From: Oscillospiraceae bacterium
GTDB taxonomy: Bacteria > Bacillota > Clostridia > Oscillospirales > Ruminococcaceae
Reading direction: 5' to 3'
Assembly: GCA_017472735.1 (NCBI GenBank)
Contig: JAFUOD010000001.1
Coordinates: 1-46,272 of the forward strand
Length of the DNA: 46,272 nt
Part shown: positions 7,134 to 46,199 of the stretch, one piece after another
Numbering within the stretch: position 1 is the first letter of the stretch
Layout of the letters: every line of letters begins with the position of its first letter
Translations under genes and position numbers: made by a program
The notes under the pieces: model-generated
Database searches by the model: none
What the model was told of the DNA's origin: nothing
The model's input: the letters and a program-made list of their open reading frames with translations, nothing else

Positions 7134-7535
7134 TTAAACTCTGCGGCGCTTGGGAGGGCGGCAACCGTTGTGAGGAATGGGAGTAACGTCCTTGATGAGT
7201 CTTACTTCAAGTTCTTCAGACTGCAAAGCACGGATAGCTGCTTCTCTTCCCTGGCCGGGGCCCTTAACATAAACTTCAACGATCTTAAGACCGTGTTCCT
7301 TAGCTGCTCTTGCTGCAGTTTCTGCTGCGGTCTGAGCTGCGAAAGGAGTGGACTTCTTGGAGCCGCGGAAGCCGAGTTCACCGGCAGAAGCCCAAGAAAT
7401 TGCGTTACCCTGCATGTCAGTAATGGTAACAATGGTGTTGTTGAAAGTGGACTGGATATGAACCTGTCCCTGTTCGATGTTCTTTCTTTCTCTACGACGA
7501 CGGATAACCGTCTTCTTAGCGTTCTTCTGAGCCAT
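7134..7535 (-). CDS. rpsK: 30S ribosomal protein S11
   Basis: A 133-residue S11 of the small-subunit platform. Signature blocks are [36 protein letters not shown] and the basic C-terminus [25 protein letters not shown] ribosome binding site precedes the ATG. It lies 15 bp downstream of rpsM. Confidence 0.97.
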
Positions 7536-7550
7536 GTTCTATATCCCTCC

Positions 7551-7919
7551 TTACTTCTTCTTATTAGCGATAGTCTTTGCAGGTCCCTTACGAGTTCTTG
7601 CGTTGGTCTTTGTTCTCTGACCTCTTACAGGCAAGCCTCTGCGGTGACGAACACCACGGTAGCAACCTACTTCGATAAGTCTCTTGATGTTAAGCTGAAC
7701 TTCTCTTCTCTTGTCGCCTTCTACCAAAAGGTTCTTATCAATATATTCACGCAACTTGGTCTCATCTTCATCAGAAAGGTCCTTAACTCTGATATCAGGG
7801 TTTACGCCTGTTTCCTTGCAGATTTTAGTTGCGGTCGGCTGACCAATGCCGTAGATATAAGTGAGAGCAACTTCGATTCTCTTATCTCTGGGCAGGTCAA
7901 TACTTGCTATACGAGCCAT
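7551..7919 (-). CDS. rpsM: 30S ribosomal protein S13
   Basis: A 122-residue S13 located in the head of the small subunit, where its C-terminal tail touches P-site tRNA. It shows [20 protein letters not shown] at the N-terminus, the helix-two-turns-helix region, and the tail [20 protein letters not shown]. Standard length and place after rpmJ. Confidence 0.97.
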
Positions 7920-9420: not shown

Positions 9421-10053
9421 TTATGCCTCTAACGCCTCAAGAGTTAAGCGAGAAGTATCACTCACTTCCTCCTGACCGATAACAGTGGTAAGCTTACCCT
9501 GTGCCGAGTAGAAATCCCTTAAGGGAGCTGTTTTTTCGTGATAAACCTTAAGTCTATCCAAAACAGTAGCAGGTTCATCGTCCTTGCGGATAACAACTTT
9601 AGCACCGCAAGCATCGCACACACCCTCAACCTTTGTAGGCTTAAAGTCTACATGGTAGGAGTTGCCGCAGCCTTCACAAACTCTTCTGCCCGAAAGGCGC
9701 TGAGCAATCTTTTTATCGGGAACGTAGATCTCGATAACCTTGTCAATGGTAATGCCCATTTTGTCCAAAGCCTCTGCCTGAGGGACTGTTCTGGGGAAAC
9801 CATCTAAAATAAATCCGTTTTTGCAGTCGTCCTGCGCGATTCTGTCCTTTAAAATGCCGATTACGACTTCATCGGGAACAAGTGCGCCGGATTCCATATA
9901 GCTCTTTGCTTCTAATCCGCAGGGGGTACCGTTCTTAACAGCCTCACGCAAGATGTTGCCTGTTGAGATAGCGGGGATTCCCTTTGCGTTGCAGATAACC
10001 TCTGCCTGAGTGCCCTTGCCGGCACCGGGAGCTCCTAACAAAATCAGGTTCAT
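9421..10053 (-). CDS. adk: Adenylate kinase
   Basis: A 210-residue enzyme interconverting ATP + AMP and 2 ADP. The P-loop is GAPGAGKGT near the N-terminus, and the NMP-binding segment and [14 protein letters not shown] follow. The LID domain is the long zinc-binding type, with CEGC and CDAC pairs (about residues 127-150). The start at 10053 is preferred to an upstream GTG because GGAG sits the right distance ahead and the family starts MNLILLG. It lies between secY and map. Confidence 0.97.
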
Positions 10054-20789: not shown

Positions 20790-21120
20790 TTTTACGCCTC
20801 CTTAAAATTTTGGTTGATTTTTAGGGGCTGAGTTCGGTGCTTCCGAACTCTCTCTGTCTTTTTAACACGCTTCCGTGTGTTTCGCACTTTGTCATACAAA
20901 AAACCGAAAAACTCAGCGTTTTTCGGTTCGACGCAGCACGACACAGCAGTTTTTATGCACTCTTCGCCACAGAATTTTACATCTGTCCGCAAGATGCCAA
21001 AAGCACATACCGTGTTCATTCTTACAGTCGCCCGGTTTAAAATCGGACATACTCGGCCGAAATTACCTGACATACCGTCAGCAACCTTCAGCTTCATCGC
21101 ATATCTTTTGCAGTCACGCA
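20790..21120 (-). promoter_or_regulatory. S10-operon leader with terminator-like hairpin
   Basis: About 330 nt of untranslated leader between the inferred start site and rpsJ. Perfect stem AACCGAAAAAC (20902-20912) with GTTTTTCGGTT (20918-20928), read on the minus strand, is followed by a T run (TTTTTTG): a factor-independent terminator shape upstream of the coding region. Two more hairpins follow downstream: ACACG/CGTGT (20865-20878) and GAGTTCGG/CCGAACTC (20830-20850). Together they suggest premature termination control, either protein-mediated as for E. coli L4 or by another route. The regulator is not identifiable from sequence. Confidence 0.55.
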
Positions 21121-40645: not shown

Positions 40646-40670
40646 GCGCTGGAATTATTTGGTTAACTTA

Positions 40671-41168
40671 ATGACATTGATTGACGATGTTATCAATTTG
40701 TACGATGAAATCTACGAACATGTACCCAAAAAGGTTTTTCTTGCAAGGTGGTATCCATCTGCGGAACATGATGGTGACAACGAATACAGAAAAGCAGAAA
40801 GCCGCATCAGCGCTATAAAAGAAGTTGTTCAGCAACTGAATCTGGAGCTGACCGATTTAGGCACAAGGGAAACCGGTACATTCGATATCAGAGATGTTAT
40901 GTATCATGACATAAGAGAATGTGATATTTTCATTGCTGACCTTTCGGGGGCTCGACACAACGTTATGATTGAAGTAGGATATGCACTAAAGCATGTTAAG
41001 ACTGCCAGAATGCTGTTCTATTTTCAGGCATCGGATAAATGTCCCTCTGTTCCGTTTGATGTTAGTCACTTAAACTATGTTCCGATTGTGGATTCTGCGG
41101 AAATAAAAACATCCGTGAAAGCACGTATTGAGAATATCCTTGAACAGGCTCGAAACGGGGAAATATAA
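40671..41168 (+). CDS. TIR/deoxyribosyltransferase-like small protein
   Basis: A 165-residue protein. KKVFLARWYPSAEHDGDNEY near the N-terminus and ECDIFIADLSG, then NVMIEVGYALKH (about residues 83-106) look like the nucleotide-binding fold shared by TIR-like and nucleoside 2-deoxyribosyltransferase proteins. The Glu of IEVGYA is the candidate catalytic residue. No clear ribosome binding site; ATG 40671 is used, and TTG 40659 is an alternative. It lies 26 bp after a strong terminator, so it depends on its own or read-through transcription. A defence effector role is possible, by analogy with TIR NADases. Confidence 0.6.
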   Translation: MTLIDDVINLYDEIYEHVPKKVFLARWYPSAEHDGDNEYRKAESRISAIKEVVQQLNLELTDLGTRETGTFDIRDVMYHDIRECDIFIADLSGARHNVMIEVGYALKHVKTARMLFYFQASDKCPSVPFDVSHLNYVPIVDSAEIKTSVKARIENILEQARNGEI

Positions 41169-41250: not shown

Positions 41251-41449
41251 AACTTCTACACAATCTGGGTAGAAGTTACAGTCTAACCTTCCTGCAAGTT
41301 GCATAGAAGTGATTTTTGACTTCGACACAACTTGTGTCGAAGTTAGCTTTTCAACTTCTGTCCAACTTGAACAGAAGTGCGGATTTAGACTTCCAACCAA
41401 CTTGGTCGGAAGTGGATTTTGAAAATTTTGCCCAGGTTGGACAGAATTA
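41251..41449. repeat. Array of six 27-nt palindromes
   Basis: Six 27-nt units begin at 41251, 41285, 41318, 41353, 41388 and 41423 (periods 34, 33, 35, 35, 35). Units 1 to 5 share outer arms ACTTC/GAAGT (slightly varied in unit 2) and, in units 3 to 5, a core CAACTTG; unit 6 is decayed. Inner arms differ between units but are largely complementary within a unit: unit 1 AACTTCTAC/GTAGAAGTT, unit 3 ACTTCGACACAA/TTGTGTCGAAGT perfectly. The period is not a multiple of three, so it is not coding. Function unknown; possibilities are protein-binding cruciforms, an RNA hairpin string or a conjugation-related site. Confidence 0.85.
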
Positions 41450-41563: not shown

Positions 41564-41592
41564 TTGACGGCATAACACATTACTCGTATAAT
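41564..41592 (+). promoter_or_regulatory. Promoter of the structured RNA
   Basis: TTGACG (41564-41569), 17-bp spacer, perfect TATAAT (41587-41592). It gives a start near 41599, at the base of the first hairpin. Confidence 0.85.
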
Positions 41593-41598
41593 AATGGC

Positions 41599-41850
41599 AC
41601 AGCGGTTCGCCGCTACATAAACAACTGAATAAACTGTTCGACCATATTGAGAAATGTCGGGTCTACCCGACACGGATTCGGTGCTCCGAAAAGTGCTGAA
41701 CTGCTCCACCACGTCTTTGGTTCTGTTGGCGGGAGCTGTATGAAGCAGAACCCGACTTTGATCTTCAGAGCCGATTACATAGAACATCATTTTGAAGCGA
41801 GAGCCACGCTCCCGCCGATTCTTGGTGCTCTGTGTAATCGGCTCTTTTTG
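41599..41850 (+). ncRNA. Candidate structured non-coding RNA, about 250 nt
   Basis: Promoter at 41564-41592, intrinsic terminator at 41845-41849. Helices seen by eye: AGCGG-ttcg-CCGCT (41601-41614), TGTCGGGT/ACCCGACA (41655-41672), CGGA/TCCG (41673-41688), GGTTCTG/CAGAACC (41719-41752), and AGAGCCGATTACA/TGTAATCGGCTCT (41767-41845, 13 bp) before TTTT. GGCGGGAGC in the loop of the fourth helix (41728-41736) is fully complementary to GCTCCCGCC in the loop of the last (41808-41816), a predicted 9-bp loop-loop pseudoknot. No plausible ORF. Family not identified; lies just upstream of oriT, so a role in mobilisation or element control is possible. Confidence 0.75.
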
Positions 41851-42220
41851 TTTTCTTCTACATCCGACAACTGAATGACCGTCCGAATGAGATATGACTT
41901 TGCGACGATATGAGCGAAGCAACGCTGGGGTGAGACTCCCGGGCAGGAACGACATTCGGGTAGAACGGCGAAAGCATTTTTAACCCTTAGTTTACTAAGG
42001 GCGCACTTCTATACGGGTGTGTTTCACACCTCGTATGTGCGCTCTGCGAGGCGACAGCACCTAACAACGAGTTGGTGCTGTTTGCGTCACTCCGTTCCGA
42101 ACAAGGAGTTGTACCCCCTTGCGCTGTTTCACAGCTATCCCTGCGCCCTTGTGGGTACGAAACGACTTTACAAATCATTCCGCACCCACAAGGCTGAAAA
42201 CAACACACAAAGGAGGTTTT
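41851..42220 (+). other. Non-coding region around oriT
   Basis: Apart from oriT this stretch holds an ACAGCACC/GGTGCTGT stem (about 42053-42081) and repeated segments TGCGCTGTTT/CACAGC and GCCCTTGTGGGTACGAAAC. No ORF of any support starts here before the DUF3847 gene. It is likely the transfer and leader region of the mobilisation genes. Confidence 0.5.
41984..42048 (-). other. oriT: Origin of transfer (MOBQ-type oriT)
   Basis: On the minus strand AAGTGCGCCCTTAG (41995-42008 on the plus strand as ctaagggcgcactt) contains GTGCGCCCT, the nick-region signature of RSF1010/R1162-type origins. Just beside it is the inverted repeat ATACG-GGTGT / ACACC-CGTAT (42011-42036), as in that family. A second hairpin CCCTTAG/CTAAGGG (41984-42000) flanks the other side. 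The relaxase gene begins about 550 bp downstream. Strongly matched to the MOBQ relaxase found here. Confidence 0.75.
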
Positions 42221-42549: not shown

Positions 42550-44022
42550 ATCGCACTATATCATTTTCACGTTGACCAAATCAAACGCAGTGCAGGACAA
42601 TCTGTTGTGGCATCCGCTGCCTACCGAGTAGGAGAAAAACTGCACAGCGAGTATTACAGCGAGGACAGCGACTACACTAACAAGGGCGGCGTGATTTATA
42701 CAGAAATCTTTCTGCCGCCCCATGCTCCAAGAGAGTATGCGGACCGAGAAACCTTATGGAACGCCGTTGAAAAAGTTGAGAAAGGCAAGAAAGCGCAGCT
42801 TGCTTACAGCTTCGACATTGCCTTTCAAAACGAATTTACCCAGGAAGAAAACATCGCTCTGGCAAAAGAGTTTCTGACGAAACATTTTGTCAGCCGTGGC
42901 ATGGTGGTGGACTTCGCCGTTCACGAGCCAGAGAAAGAAGAAGGCGGCATCAATAATCCTCACTTTCATTTCCTATGTCCCATCCGTCCTATCGACCAAA
43001 AAGGAAAATGGGGATTAAAACAGAAACGAGAATATGTGCTTGATGAAAATGGCAACCACATCCCCGACGGCAAAGGCGATTATGTGTTCAATGCCGTTCC
43101 CACCACCGATTGGGGTTCAGCTGAAACCTTGGAGTTCTGGCGTGAACAATGGGCGGTGATGTGCAACGCCAAGTTTGAAGAAAAAGGTTTGGATGTCCGC
43201 ATCGACCACCGCAGTTATGAACGACAGGGCGTTGAACAGCTGCCTACTGTTCACGAAGGTCCCACCGTCCGAGCCATGGAGAAGAAAGGCATCAAGACCG
43301 AAAAGGGCGAGTTCAACCGATGGATCAAAGCCACCAACGCCTTTATCCGTAATCTTCGCAAAAATCTGTCTACTCTGCTTGAAGCCATCAAGGAAATCAA
43401 GGCAGAAATGGACAAGCCGCAGGCAGAGTCGGTCATCGTTCCACTGCAAAGATACTTCGATATGCGCAACGCTAAAGCCTATTCTCAGAAGGCAAGAGTC
43501 AGCAATCTGAAAGAGATGAACGAAATGGCGAACTATCTCAAAGCCAATGAGATCTACACCATAGACGATTTGGAAAGCCGAGTATCTACGTTGCGTGACA
43601 CCGTTGACGAATTGAAGGCAGCTATGGATAAGGAAACCGCCCGTATGAAAGAAATCCGCAAGATGTCCGAATACTCTGCCGCTTTCAAAGCACTCAAACC
43701 GATAGTCGATGAATTGCAGAAAATCAAATTCACCAAGGCAAAAGAAAAGTACAAGGCAGAACACGCCGCCGAGCTTCGTCAGTATTACGCCGCACGTCGC
43801 AAGATTTTGGACGAGTTCCCCGGCGGCAAGTACGACAGCCGTGTGCTCGATAAGGAGTACGCACAGCTTGAACAGCAGCATAAGGACACCTACGCCAAGT
43901 TCGTTGCCATACGTGAGGAATACCAGCGCATTTGGCATATCCAGTCCCATGTGAACCAAGGGCGTGGCAACGCAGAGCAGAGCCAGCAGAAGAAAGATAA
44001 TCGAAAGCAGGAAGAGCGCTAA
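42550..44022 (+). CDS. mobA: MobA/MobL relaxase, MOBQ (non-standard start)
   Basis: A 490-residue relaxase that nicks oriT and pilots the strand during mobilisation. The N-terminal segment YHFHVDQIKRSAGQSVVASA is followed by AAY, the likely catalytic Tyr (about residue 24), and NNPHFHFLCPIRP (about 137-149) is the metal-binding histidine motif. C-terminal half helical and coiled coil. The family-typical N-terminus is preceded by ATC at 42550 and not by ATG, with AAAGGAGGG 6 nt upstream; upstream in frame is a stop codon, and the first standard start (GTG 42607) would remove the first strand and the catalytic segment's lead-in. So ATC is the likely start. Confidence 0.85.
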   Translation: MALYHFHVDQIKRSAGQSVVASAAYRVGEKLHSEYYSEDSDYTNKGGVIYTEIFLPPHAPREYADRETLWNAVEKVEKGKKAQLAYSFDIAFQNEFTQEENIALAKEFLTKHFVSRGMVVDFAVHEPEKEEGGINNPHFHFLCPIRPIDQKGKWGLKQKREYVLDENGNHIPDGKGDYVFNAVPTTDWGSAETLEFWREQWAVMCNAKFEEKGLDVRIDHRSYERQGVEQLPTVHEGPTVRAMEKKGIKTEKGEFNRWIKATNAFIRNLRKNLSTLLEAIKEIKAEMDKPQAESVIVPLQRYFDMRNAKAYSQKARVSNLKEMNEMANYLKANEIYTIDDLESRVSTLRDTVDELKAAMDKETARMKEIRKMSEYSAAFKALKPIVDELQKIKFTKAKEKYKAEHAAELRQYYAARRKILDEFPGGKYDSRVLDKEYAQLEQQHKDTYAKFVAIREEYQRIWHIQSHVNQGRGNAEQSQQKKDNRKQEER

Positions 44023-44101: not shown

Positions 44102-44479
44102 ATGAACGAGCAAAAGAAAGCGATAGATATGACACGGGAGGAATTGAAAGAGCTGCTAAACTCGTTGTCCGCATCGGAGGACAATTCCTCTTGCGTTCAA
44201 TTTTCAGACTCCGACCCGTATTTGAAGCACGAACCCTTTGAGCCGAACAAGGTGCTGCGTGACATTTCCTTTGATGATGACGGAAATATCCACGTCAAAA
44301 ACACCTCTGCCTATTGGATACCGGAGCTGACCGTTACTGAAAAAATCAGCGGAACGACCTACACCGTGACCGGCAGCTATGAGGGTACGGATAGTTTCAT
44401 CCGCAAGTTGGAGCGTATCGCATCGAGAAAGTTTACAAATGAGTTAGGGGGCATCAATGACAGATATTCAGAAATTTGA
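44102..44479 (+). CDS. tnpW: Transposon-encoded protein TnpW
   Basis: A 125-residue protein. The C-terminal part (TVTEKISGTTYTVTGSYEGT, then DSFIRKLERIASRKF) matches the TnpW family of Tn4451-like elements; the N-terminal half (MTREELKELLNSLSA) is longer than the shortest members. The ATG at 44102 follows AAAGGA; a frame starting upstream passes through the palindrome. It overlaps the recombinase gene by 23 bp. Function unknown. Confidence 0.75.
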   Translation: MNEQKKAIDMTREELKELLNSLSASEDNSSCVQFSDSDPYLKHEPFEPNKVLRDISFDDDGNIHVKNTSAYWIPELTVTEKISGTTYTVTGSYEGTDSFIRKLERIASRKFTNELGGINDRYSEI

Positions 44480-46199
44480 TATAATAGAGACAGCCAATCC
44501 TGTACTGACAGTTGCTCCGAGTAAGGAGGAAACAGAATTGTTAGGAGCAACAGACAAAATTACCGCCCTTTACTGCCGCTTGTCCGTGGAGGATATGAAG
44601 GAAGGTAAAAACGGCGAAAAAACTGACGAGTCGAATTCGATACAGACGCAAAAAATGATCCTGCTTCAATATGCAAAGCAGAATCATTTCCCGAATCCCA
44701 CGTTTTTCGTGGATGACGGATACAGCGGCGTTGACTTCGATAACCGTCCCGGTTTTCAGCAGATGCTCGCAGAGGTCAAAACAGGTCGTGTTGGTACGAT
44801 CATCACCAAAGACCTGTCGAGACTTGGACGAAACTCTGCGATGACCAGCCTGTATATCAACATTGTATTTCCGAAAAGCGGTGTTCGATATATCGCCATC
44901 AATGACCACTTCGATTCCATCGACATGAACAGTACCGAATGCGACATGGCGGGTATCAAAAACTGGTTCAACGAGTTTTTCGCCAAAGATACCAGCCGCA
45001 AAATTCGTGCTGTGCAGAAAGCAAAGGGCGAACGTGGCGTACCGCTGACCACCAATGTTCCTTACGGCTACATCAAGGACAAAGAGAATCCACAGACCTG
45101 GCTGATTGACCCCGAAGCGGCATCCGTCGTGAAACGCATCTTTGATATGTGTATGAACGGACGAGGCCCGTCGCAGATTGCCAATCAGCTAAAGGCAGAT
45201 GGTGTTCTCACTCCTACCGCCTATAAGGACAGCTTAGGTATTAAAAGTCCCAACACAGCACCCGAAAATCCTTGTGGATGGCATGGCAGCACGGTTGTTG
45301 CCATTCTGGAACGCAGAGAGTACACAGGCTGTACGGTCAACTTCAAGACCTACACCAATTCCATTTGGGACAAGAAGCAAAGGGACAACCCCATTGAAAA
45401 GCAGGCAATCTTCGAGGACACTCACGAAGCCATCGTTGAGCCGGACATCTTTGAGAAAGTGCAGATTATCCGCCAACAGCGACAGCGCAAAACCAAGTCG
45501 GGATGTACGAGTACCTTTTCCGGTTTGGTGTACTGCGCCGATTGCGGTGAGAAGCTGTACTACGGAGCCACCAACAACGGCAAGCGTGAGGGAGCGTTCT
45601 TCGATTGTTCGCTTCATTGGAAGCACAAAGACAAGTGTGGTACACACTTCATTCGTGAGTCCGTGTTGGAACGAATGGTGCTGAAACACATCCAGTTGGT
45701 CATGGGGTATATTCTCAGATACCGTCAGCATTTTATCTCTGTGATGGAACAACAGCTCCAGTTGGAGTCGGCAGAAAAGCTGCAGACAAGCCGTAAACAG
45801 CTTGAACGCAACGAACGCCGCATAGCAGAGCTGAAAAGGCTTTTCATTAAGATTTACGAGGATAATGCCAAGGGCATTCTGAGTGATGAACGCTTTGAGA
45901 TGATGAGCCAAAACTACGAAGCGGAACAGAAGCAGCTTGAAGCAGAGGTTGTCTCTCTGCGACAGGAAATTGAAGTACAGGAAAGACAGAACGAAAATAT
46001 TGAAAGGTTTATCCGAACGTCAGACAAATACGTGGGCATCGAGGAAATCGACCCGTGTATGCTGCGAGAGCTGATAAAGGCGATCTATGTGGAAGCACCG
46101 GACAAGTCCAGCGGCAAGCGCAGGCAGAAGATCCACATCCAGTATGACGGCATCGGCTTTATCCCTTTGGAAGAACTTGCGAAAAAGGAAACGGCGTGA
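44457..46199 (+). CDS. tnpX: Large serine recombinase, TnpX type
   Basis: A 580-residue serine recombinase that excises and integrates the element. The resolvase domain has the nucleophile Ser43 in YCRLSVED and the conserved SRLGRN (about residues 121-126). After the central recombinase domain (YTGCTVNFKTYTNSIWDKKQ) comes a zinc ribbon (CADCGEKLYYG, then CSLHWKHKDKCGTH) and a long coiled coil, then the C-terminal RELIKAIYVEAPDKSSGKRR. ATG at 44457 follows AGGGGG at 6 nt and overlaps tnpW. It is the gene nearest to the right end, as in Tn4451. Confidence 0.94.
   Translation: MTDIQKFDIIETANPVLTVAPSKEETELLGATDKITALYCRLSVEDMKEGKNGEKTDESNSIQTQKMILLQYAKQNHFPNPTFFVDDGYSGVDFDNRPGFQQMLAEVKTGRVGTIITKDLSRLGRNSAMTSLYINIVFPKSGVRYIAINDHFDSIDMNSTECDMAGIKNWFNEFFAKDTSRKIRAVQKAKGERGVPLTTNVPYGYIKDKENPQTWLIDPEAASVVKRIFDMCMNGRGPSQIANQLKADGVLTPTAYKDSLGIKSPNTAPENPCGWHGSTVVAILERREYTGCTVNFKTYTNSIWDKKQRDNPIEKQAIFEDTHEAIVEPDIFEKVQIIRQQRQRKTKSGCTSTFSGLVYCADCGEKLYYGATNNGKREGAFFDCSLHWKHKDKCGTHFIRESVLERMVLKHIQLVMGYILRYRQHFISVMEQQLQLESAEKLQTSRKQLERNERRIAELKRLFIKIYEDNAKGILSDERFEMMSQNYEAEQKQLEAEVVSLRQEIEVQERQNENIERFIRTSDKYVGIEEIDPCMLRELIKAIYVEAPDKSSGKRRQKIHIQYDGIGFIPLEELAKKETA

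Follow-up and report, generated by a model that had tools for sequence, protein, structure and literature searches.

Six different palindromes on a mobilizable element as putative binding sites for the ParB proteins of several helpers

Why would a mobilizable element carry six palindromes in a row, all built on one plan and each spelled differently? The question arises from the window (the whole analysed stretch of 46,272 nucleotides), where six odd-centred 25-bp palindromes occupy positions 41252-41448 with start-to-start spacings of 34, 33, 35, 35 and 35. Each of these inverted repeats has A(C/A)TT at its outer ends and CAA-S-TTG at its centre, and 8 to 12 of the 12 pairs around the one centre base are Watson-Crick pairs. 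We suggest, with a probability of about 0.7, that the array consists of six different ParB-binding (parS-like) sites, at which the element would dock the ParB of several helpers. The units are as follows (none is assigned a strand):

41252..41276, no strand: array unit 1, parS-like palindrome, arms TACAC/GGGTA, 10/12 pairs
41286..41310, no strand: array unit 2, the most degenerate, 8/12 pairs
41319..41343, no strand: array unit 3, perfect palindrome, GACAC, 12/12 pairs
41354..41378, no strand: array unit 4, TGTCC, 11/12 pairs
41389..41413, no strand: array unit 5, CAACC, 11/12 pairs
41424..41448, no strand: array unit 6, TGCCC, outer arms AATT, 9/12 pairs

The array is far above chance. With up to 3 mismatches allowed, its consensus is matched 10 times in the window (units 1-5, on both strands) against 0.18 expected, a number that none of 100 shuffles equalled; unit 6 differs from the consensus at 4 positions and falls outside this count. 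The first-pass annotation, made from the letters of this DNA, thus described a real six-unit array with a 33-35 bp period. It was also right that the inner arms vary from unit to unit and yet remain complementary to each other. Of the two units it called perfect, unit 3 is so and unit 1 is not, owing to mismatches at positions 1 and 4; the outer arms ACTTC/GAAGT are mostly kept, as it stated, with the departure of unit 6. The regular period recalls a CRISPR, an identity it had dismissed, and there are indeed neither identical repeats nor unrelated spacers. No Rfam family reached gathering in the array region, and BLAST of this region against annotated plasmids and phages gave no match. Helix-phased operators were considered and rejected, as 33-35 bp is no whole number of turns. 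Immediately upstream of the array, a small protein (40659-41168, plus strand) weakly resembles nucleoside 2-deoxyribosyltransferase (PF05014, below cut-off).

Further features define the element around the array:

about 41985-42060, minus strand: oriT-like stretch, with an inverted repeat and AAGTGCGCCCT on the minus strand; similar stretches occur in relatives
42607..44022, plus strand: MobQ / MobA_MobL relaxase (PF03389, 6.5e-84; NCBIfam MobQ, 3.1e-66, above cut-off)
44457..46199, plus strand: large serine recombinase (PF00239, PF07508, PF13408, PF14287)

The other side of the array holds cargo with Mrr, TcmP, HSDR_N, ABC_ATPase and GNAT, that is, restriction and other genes. Because no type IV secretion gene was found among the ten window proteins scanned, we take the element to be integrative and mobilizable. 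The oriT-like stretch contains what we take to be a MobQ nic motif; if this assignment holds, the array would lie in the part of the DNA that enters the recipient first.

The key to the array came from single copies of the same motif. When the whole own genome was searched with up to 2 mismatches, one site was found beyond the array, within a parB-like gene. Single copies occur in 19 of 99 genomes (the own one counted), often inside parB-like genes. We took 156 parB homologues from a larger number of matches by protein similarity (the ParB query, from locus L070, itself came from the motif pattern, its 156 homologues from protein similarity) and measured palindromy at every aligned position over all of them. 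In 149 of the 156 genes an in-frame palindrome with at least 9 of 12 pairs is present at one alignment column. The mean at this column is 10.73 of 12 pairs, the next best column reaches 5.81 and all columns together 2.98 +- 0.75. The 149 sites represent 119 distinct 25-mers (126 over all 156 genes). Among the seven genes without the palindrome, L147 has 7 pairs and L148-L151, L158 and L159 have 1-4, several of the seven being distant or perhaps misaligned. Such a ParB is present in 11 plasmid records; the three that we inspected, from Pusillibacter, Cohnella and Monoglobus, all have the palindrome, with 9, 11 and 9 pairs. A ParA motif lies within about 1.5 kb of 30 of 56 parB loci. An oriT hairpin, considered because of nic-like letters after some single copies, was rejected, the copies inspected being situated inside parB.

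If the palindrome is read by the protein whose gene contains it, its bases should follow the DNA-reading residues of that protein. The covariation set comprised 130 ParBs, obtained from 143 sites with at least 10 pairs by de-duplication at 95%, and only the left half-site was used. The top MI-APC score is 0.582 (z 16.4), and the best of 30 permutations, which ignore kinship, is 0.112. The covarying ParB residues align with residues 174, 173, 177 and 201 of Caulobacter ParB, in the helix-turn-helix; this numbering is a by-hand register, based on alignment to Spo0J and on the Caulobacter residues of PMC7383237. Residues 173 and 201 set specificity, according to the same paper. The correspondence is nearly deterministic: D174 goes with G at site position 4 (33/33), N174 with C at position 4 (22/22), R174 with G at position 5 (26/26) and F177 with T at position 6 (15/15), while R201 goes with C at position 2 in 43 of 44 cases and N, T or S201 with A at position 2 in 84 of 86. 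Site-adjacent columns (-7, -8, +6 and +8) also score high, which may reflect closeness.

Kinship was addressed with 57 sister pairs, each ParB being used once. Positions 4-5 are the same in 18 of 24 pairs that share residue 174 and in 2 of 33 pairs that differ in it, and residue 174 with position 4 is the best of 1194 column-position tests (p 9.5e-8). A weaker tendency in the same direction is seen for control columns (column 90, 17/41 vs 3/16; column 200, 19/51 vs 1/6). Residue 201 shows little in this test (48/50 vs 4/7); as many columns follow site position 2, the ParBs with R201 may form a clade of their own. Because the bases covary with recognition residues and the sister pairs agree, the palindrome inside parB is very probably each ParB's own parS site.

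One genome (G067) contains more than the internal site. Its putative conjugation region (L053, G067:C1:1893500-1912800) has twelve copies of one parS-like site, two of them with one change; one copy is inside parB, most are at gene boundaries by eye and several stand just 5' of ribosome-binding-like letters. Centre base aside, the parB-internal site equals 9 of 11 other copies within 17 kb. Helpers may therefore use such sites also as operators, as these copies suggest. A further 38.7 kb around the cluster contained no more copies, and additional own-site copies beside parB number 2 in 49 loci, both in G067, so the dispersal is not general.

These results bear directly on the main claim of the first-pass annotation, namely that selection acts on a hairpin and not on a protein-binding word. 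This claim is probably wrong, given that the bases of the palindrome follow the DNA-reading residues of the encoded ParB; each array unit probably is a protein-binding word, different from unit to unit. Hairpins of a single strand, be it the transferred strand or an RNA, could nevertheless be what is selected, and the array does fold strongly (z -6.63 and -6.72 on the two strands). Folding is equally strong on both strands, as any palindrome would give. The putative position on the first-entering side of the oriT-like stretch, which depends on our assignment of the nic motif, would suit a hairpin of the transferred strand. So would compensatory change among homologues, which had been proposed as a check of the hairpin and which is present. 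In an alignment of 8 six-unit arrays, 89.9% of cells pair, and changes on both sides affect 12 pairs and 21 cells. Shuffles give means of 7.6 and 10.5, and 5 and 0 of 500 came up to the observed values. When the partner columns are displaced by 1-3, two-sided change is seen in no more than 5 pairs and 7 cells; the number of further pair types (23) is not above that of shuffles (22.3). A ParB dimer, reading two equal half-sites, explains both the compensatory changes and the covariation with ParB, and two features of the arrays speak against the hairpin. There is no G-T strand preference: of 265 cells at positions 4-8 (53 distinct six-type units), unpaired ones are G-T on the array strand in 14 and on the other strand in 17. 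In long arrays (six, three of them related) the symmetry extends to the innermost pair (Watson-Crick fraction 0.87; 109 A-T and 16 T-A of 143), a pair that cannot form in a hairpin. The array is probably not a hairpin RNA, and selection on single-strand hairpins in general appears very unlikely to us.

Related arrays were searched with a pattern of one full unit followed by the next ACTTC. The genome collection gave 44 stretches and the viral contigs 1; 14 of these 45 loci are within parB genes and 31 are outside. A cluster of three or more units is present at 26 of the 31, on 24 contigs besides that of the window; the clusters range from 3 to 39 units, most of which differ from each other. 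The array-bearing mobilizable elements are mainly from Clostridia, and the arrays are usually tied to a mobilization module, in agreement with the link drawn from the window. Sixteen arrays are of the six-unit type or its remnants, those of the window and of G092 counted in. The order of unit words is largely kept where the mobilization genes of the elements differ, as they do between the window (MobQ) and G092 (a MobC/NikA-like protein). Lineages differ in that the window and L112 have GACAC as third unit, the other six aligned arrays instead having CCGAC as fifth. Long arrays are present at four loci, with 16 to 39 palindromes in 0.75-1.6 kb (at most 1.0 expected from base shuffles), and two more loci have 14-15; that of L104 has 39 units with 33 distinct arms. 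Nearby relaxases are VirD2-like at L104 and L115 and Mob_Pre at L089.

Several of these loci deserve a remark of their own. In L061 (5502-5560 / 9896-9989) and L097 (186-244 / 7451-7609), cargo of 4.3 kb and 7.2 kb, respectively, separates unit 1 from the remaining array. An attC-like platform for cargo integration, suggested by cargo after unit 1 in G092 and L097, seemed superfluous once the link to ParB had been seen. Tandem terminators were rejected: the plus-strand spacers of six-unit arrays are T-rich, yet nothing in the array scores as terminator-like, and spacers of L104 are mostly without T-runs by eye. Downstream of the array of L076 (about 1650-1890, G416) stands another repeat, CGGCTACCACTTGGGAGA-like, in about four copies by eye. 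In L064 (5300-5635), a serine recombinase is preceded by equally long palindromes that use different words (ACTTTTGATCACGGTGATCAAAAGT and the like). The six-unit array closest to that of the window is in L112 (813-1009); its homology ends about 16 nt past unit 6, apparently host genes following, and we regard it as a solo or truncated array.

The decay of unit 2 and an array such as that of L112, without the downstream module, might be taken as signs of neutral leftovers. These could be pieces of parB genes, or else palindromes whose symmetry is maintained by template switching, mutation being known to correct quasipalindromes. Against this stand the spacers of six-unit arrays, which are short and T-rich, the many spacings that are not a multiple of three, and the retention of unit order and identity between elements whose mobilization genes differ. 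No homology of array spacers to the flanks of parB was noticed. We consider this explanation most improbable.

If the units are ParB sites, their words should recur in parB genes. We compared half-sites without L108 and L118, which are relatives of L115, and without L109/L120; the comparison of whole units included L108 and L118. In six-unit arrays, 13 of 40 distinct 10-nt half-site cores are identical to the core of a parB site. A position-specific Markov null gives 6.68 +- 1.78 (maximum 12 of 2000 runs) and a column shuffle 6.56, with a maximum over 500 runs of 13, which equals the observed number. In long arrays 27 of 125 cores are shared, against 14.27 +- 2.55 (maximum 25 of 2000) in the Markov null and 10.93 (maximum 21) in the column shuffle; by themselves, L104 and L115 reach only weak significance (Markov p 0.042 and 0.017), and neither the units of one element nor those of different elements are independent of each other. 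As for whole units, 20 of 49 of the six-unit type are within 1 mismatch of a parB site (column shuffle 6.0 +- 2.2, maximum 9 of 100). Exact matches number 2 of 49 in this type, which is not above the null of 1.29, and 13 of 118 in long arrays (null 2.35 +- 1.39, maximum 5 of 40).

The units of the window can be compared with individual ParBs, whose classes are given as the four letters of residues 173/174/177/201. Unit 4 has a half-site identical (12/12) to L132 and L241, with GIMN or ETQN as nearest ParBs, and unit 5 one identical (12/12) to L177, L178 and L205, all KNRT. The best half-sites of the other units have 1 mismatch of 12: unit 1 to L165, L184 and L263 (nearest ParBs RERR or KDRT), unit 2 to L165 and L273, where residue 174 is D (nearest KDRT or KDRN), unit 3 to 5 parB sites (3 RMQT, 2 RERR) and unit 6 to L193, L207 and L241 (nearest NTQR or ETQN). 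Units 1, 2 and 6 are worn palindromes. Some of the nearest sites of units 1, 3 and 6 belong to R201-type ParBs and differ exactly at the base read by R201; because of this mismatch, R201-type ParBs are not predicted to read these units, and a ParB with N, T or S201 from outside our sample is the likelier partner. For none of the window units is the parB site on G000:C10, in the own genome, the nearest one (a second parB, on C17, is outside the sample).

The arrays do not sample all ParBs alike. CCA-type sites account for 46 of 149 sites in parB vs 1 of 101 units in four long arrays, and the arrays are therefore not a fair sample of all ParBs. A search for CCA-type arrays gave 0 in 225 genomes, and the CAA-type control gave only 3 in the same genomes, one of which is the window. 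The scarcity among the units of long arrays may express a choice of helpers, a reading that is unproven. Taken together, we are highly confident, as far as comparison of words and residues can tell, that both the palindromes inside parB and the units of the arrays are sites for ParB.

What would ParB do there? We infer its binding to the array, and the consequences, from sequence. A dimer of ParB would read each unit as an inverted repeat, in which the whole family would share the outer A(C/A)TT and central CAA-S-TTG, and the five variable bases of each half would spell the address of a single ParB specificity class. Units that differ would then be meant for the ParBs of different helper elements, and whenever a helper is present, its ParB would load on the matching unit. 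As the most likely consequence, ParA and ParB of the helper would segregate the excised element, as is shown for SGI1 with IncC plasmids; the array may also disturb the helper's own partitioning. Docking of several helpers as the function of the array is a reading that we favour slightly.

Sites for ParB could also act in another way. A ParB that slides from the array could act on a promoter that starts about 115 bp downstream of its end, where three features precede the oriT-like stretch:

41564..41592, plus strand: sigma70-like promoter, TTGACG-17-TATAAT, 11/12 consensus matches (consensus match only)
41593..41856, plus strand: conserved non-coding stretch, putative small RNA, with a terminator-like end by eye
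41867-41978: second conserved non-coding element, after the putative RNA and before the oriT-like stretch, 70-96% identical in relatives

Under this alternative, which concerns the six-unit type, the sites serve mainly for control: the helper's ParB, moving along the DNA as a CTP clamp, would silence or tune both the promoter and the putative small RNA, and the element, in a KorB-like manner, would sense which helper is present. KorB works so on RK2, as described in an excerpt of PMC11790492. The position of the promoter speaks for such a role; 3 promoter-like sites were found against 1.2 expected. Matches to the non-coding stretch, 236-271 nt long with 83-91% identity, follow 9 of the 15 other six-type arrays, and a tenth, in L105, ends at the locus boundary; in L086, L097 and L102 the sequence past the array is at most 391 nt long, too little to judge. 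It is absent, however, downstream of L112 (7.0 kb, apparently host genes) and L127 (564 nt), and the long arrays L104, L108, L115 and L118 have no match to it. Control as the main purpose of the sites thus seems to us unlikely, if worth keeping in sight. The putative small RNA precedes MobQ as well as MobC-type mobilization genes. It belongs to no Rfam family at gathering; there is a weak match to the DUF2800 RNA at 41565-41666 (21.7 bits, gathering 60.2).

A ParB-binding array might also be a weapon or a decoy, which titrates the ParB of incoming conjugative elements and destabilises them through parS incompatibility. Restriction-type genes (Mrr, HSDR_N) in the cargo of the window, and also 1.3 kb from the L104 array, are in keeping with such a defence, and parS sites of SGI1 destabilise its IncC helper, according to an excerpt of PMC10954446. 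Titration, however, wants many copies of one site, and the arrays have about one of each (compare the arms and units of L104). About one copy per word is the breadth that docking needs, so docking fits better than titration, which we hold to be rather improbable.

The docking reading can be extended to the long arrays. These could be address books of up to 39 mostly different parS words, each for the ParB class of another element; helpers would diversify the specificity of ParB together with the parS word inside parB, in an arms race written as a near-deterministic protein-DNA code. Any helper in the cell could then segregate the parasite, or be sabotaged by it. The chances for and against this extension appear evenly balanced to us.

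The closest known system is SGI1, a mobilizable element that carries copies of its helper's parS, is partitioned by the helper's ParA and ParB and destabilises the helper (excerpt of PMC10954446). It, too, is integrative and mobilizable, is without a known Par system of its own and has sites that mimic the helper's parS, and its helper has parS copies scattered between and inside genes, again by the excerpt of PMC10954446. The loci with our arrays likewise appear to be without parAB of their own: a ParB HMM (E 1e-5) gave no hit in 31 array loci, the 46-kb window included, and the ParA motif KGGxGKT was absent from 29 array loci (230 kb), most loci in both scans being at most 8 kb long. The difference is that SGI1 has two copies for one helper family, whereas here 6 (up to 39) sites of mostly different specificities stand together, with a function that we read from their letters.

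Other systems share single traits. In chromosomal ParB/parS and Noc/NBS, a palindrome is read by the DNA-binding domain of ParB through residues 173 and 201 (excerpt of PMC7383237); the site described here is a longer, odd-centred one of 25 bp with five variable bases per half, lies inside the parB gene itself and is very diverse between elements. KorB, which belongs to the ParB family, has 12 operators in RK2/RP4, palindromes of 13 bp that lie dispersed (excerpt of PMC10954446). The conjugative nature of RK2/RP4 and the 12 like copies in G067 make a parallel. KorB sites of RK2 share one sequence, in contrast to the six sequences of the window array. REPs and BIMEs are also repeated palindromes outside genes. 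REPs share their sequence and are dispersed by a transposase, whereas here the arms vary by unit and the family follows ParB; no shared, dispersed palindrome was found in the own genome, where the single site beyond the array (up to 2 mismatches) is the one in parB. We found no description of such an array, or of the site inside parB, in the open-access literature. Many specificities side by side thus appear to be new, with the hijack of one helper's parABS by SGI1 as precedent.

If the docking reading is true, one could read from an array which helpers its element expects, and hijack of partition would seem to be widespread and directed at many targets instead of being peculiar to SGI1. The sites inside parB offer more than 100 natural pairs of ParB and parS for learning how ParB reads DNA, and possibly orthogonal parS tags.

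Three minor observations concern the own genome. A partial copy of the putative small RNA is present at G000:C20:179547-179646, and a copy of the second conserved element at G000:C20:179859-179969. In the window itself, an S10-Clostridia ribosomal protein leader (RF03136, 37.8 bits) is located at 21025-21105 on the minus strand.
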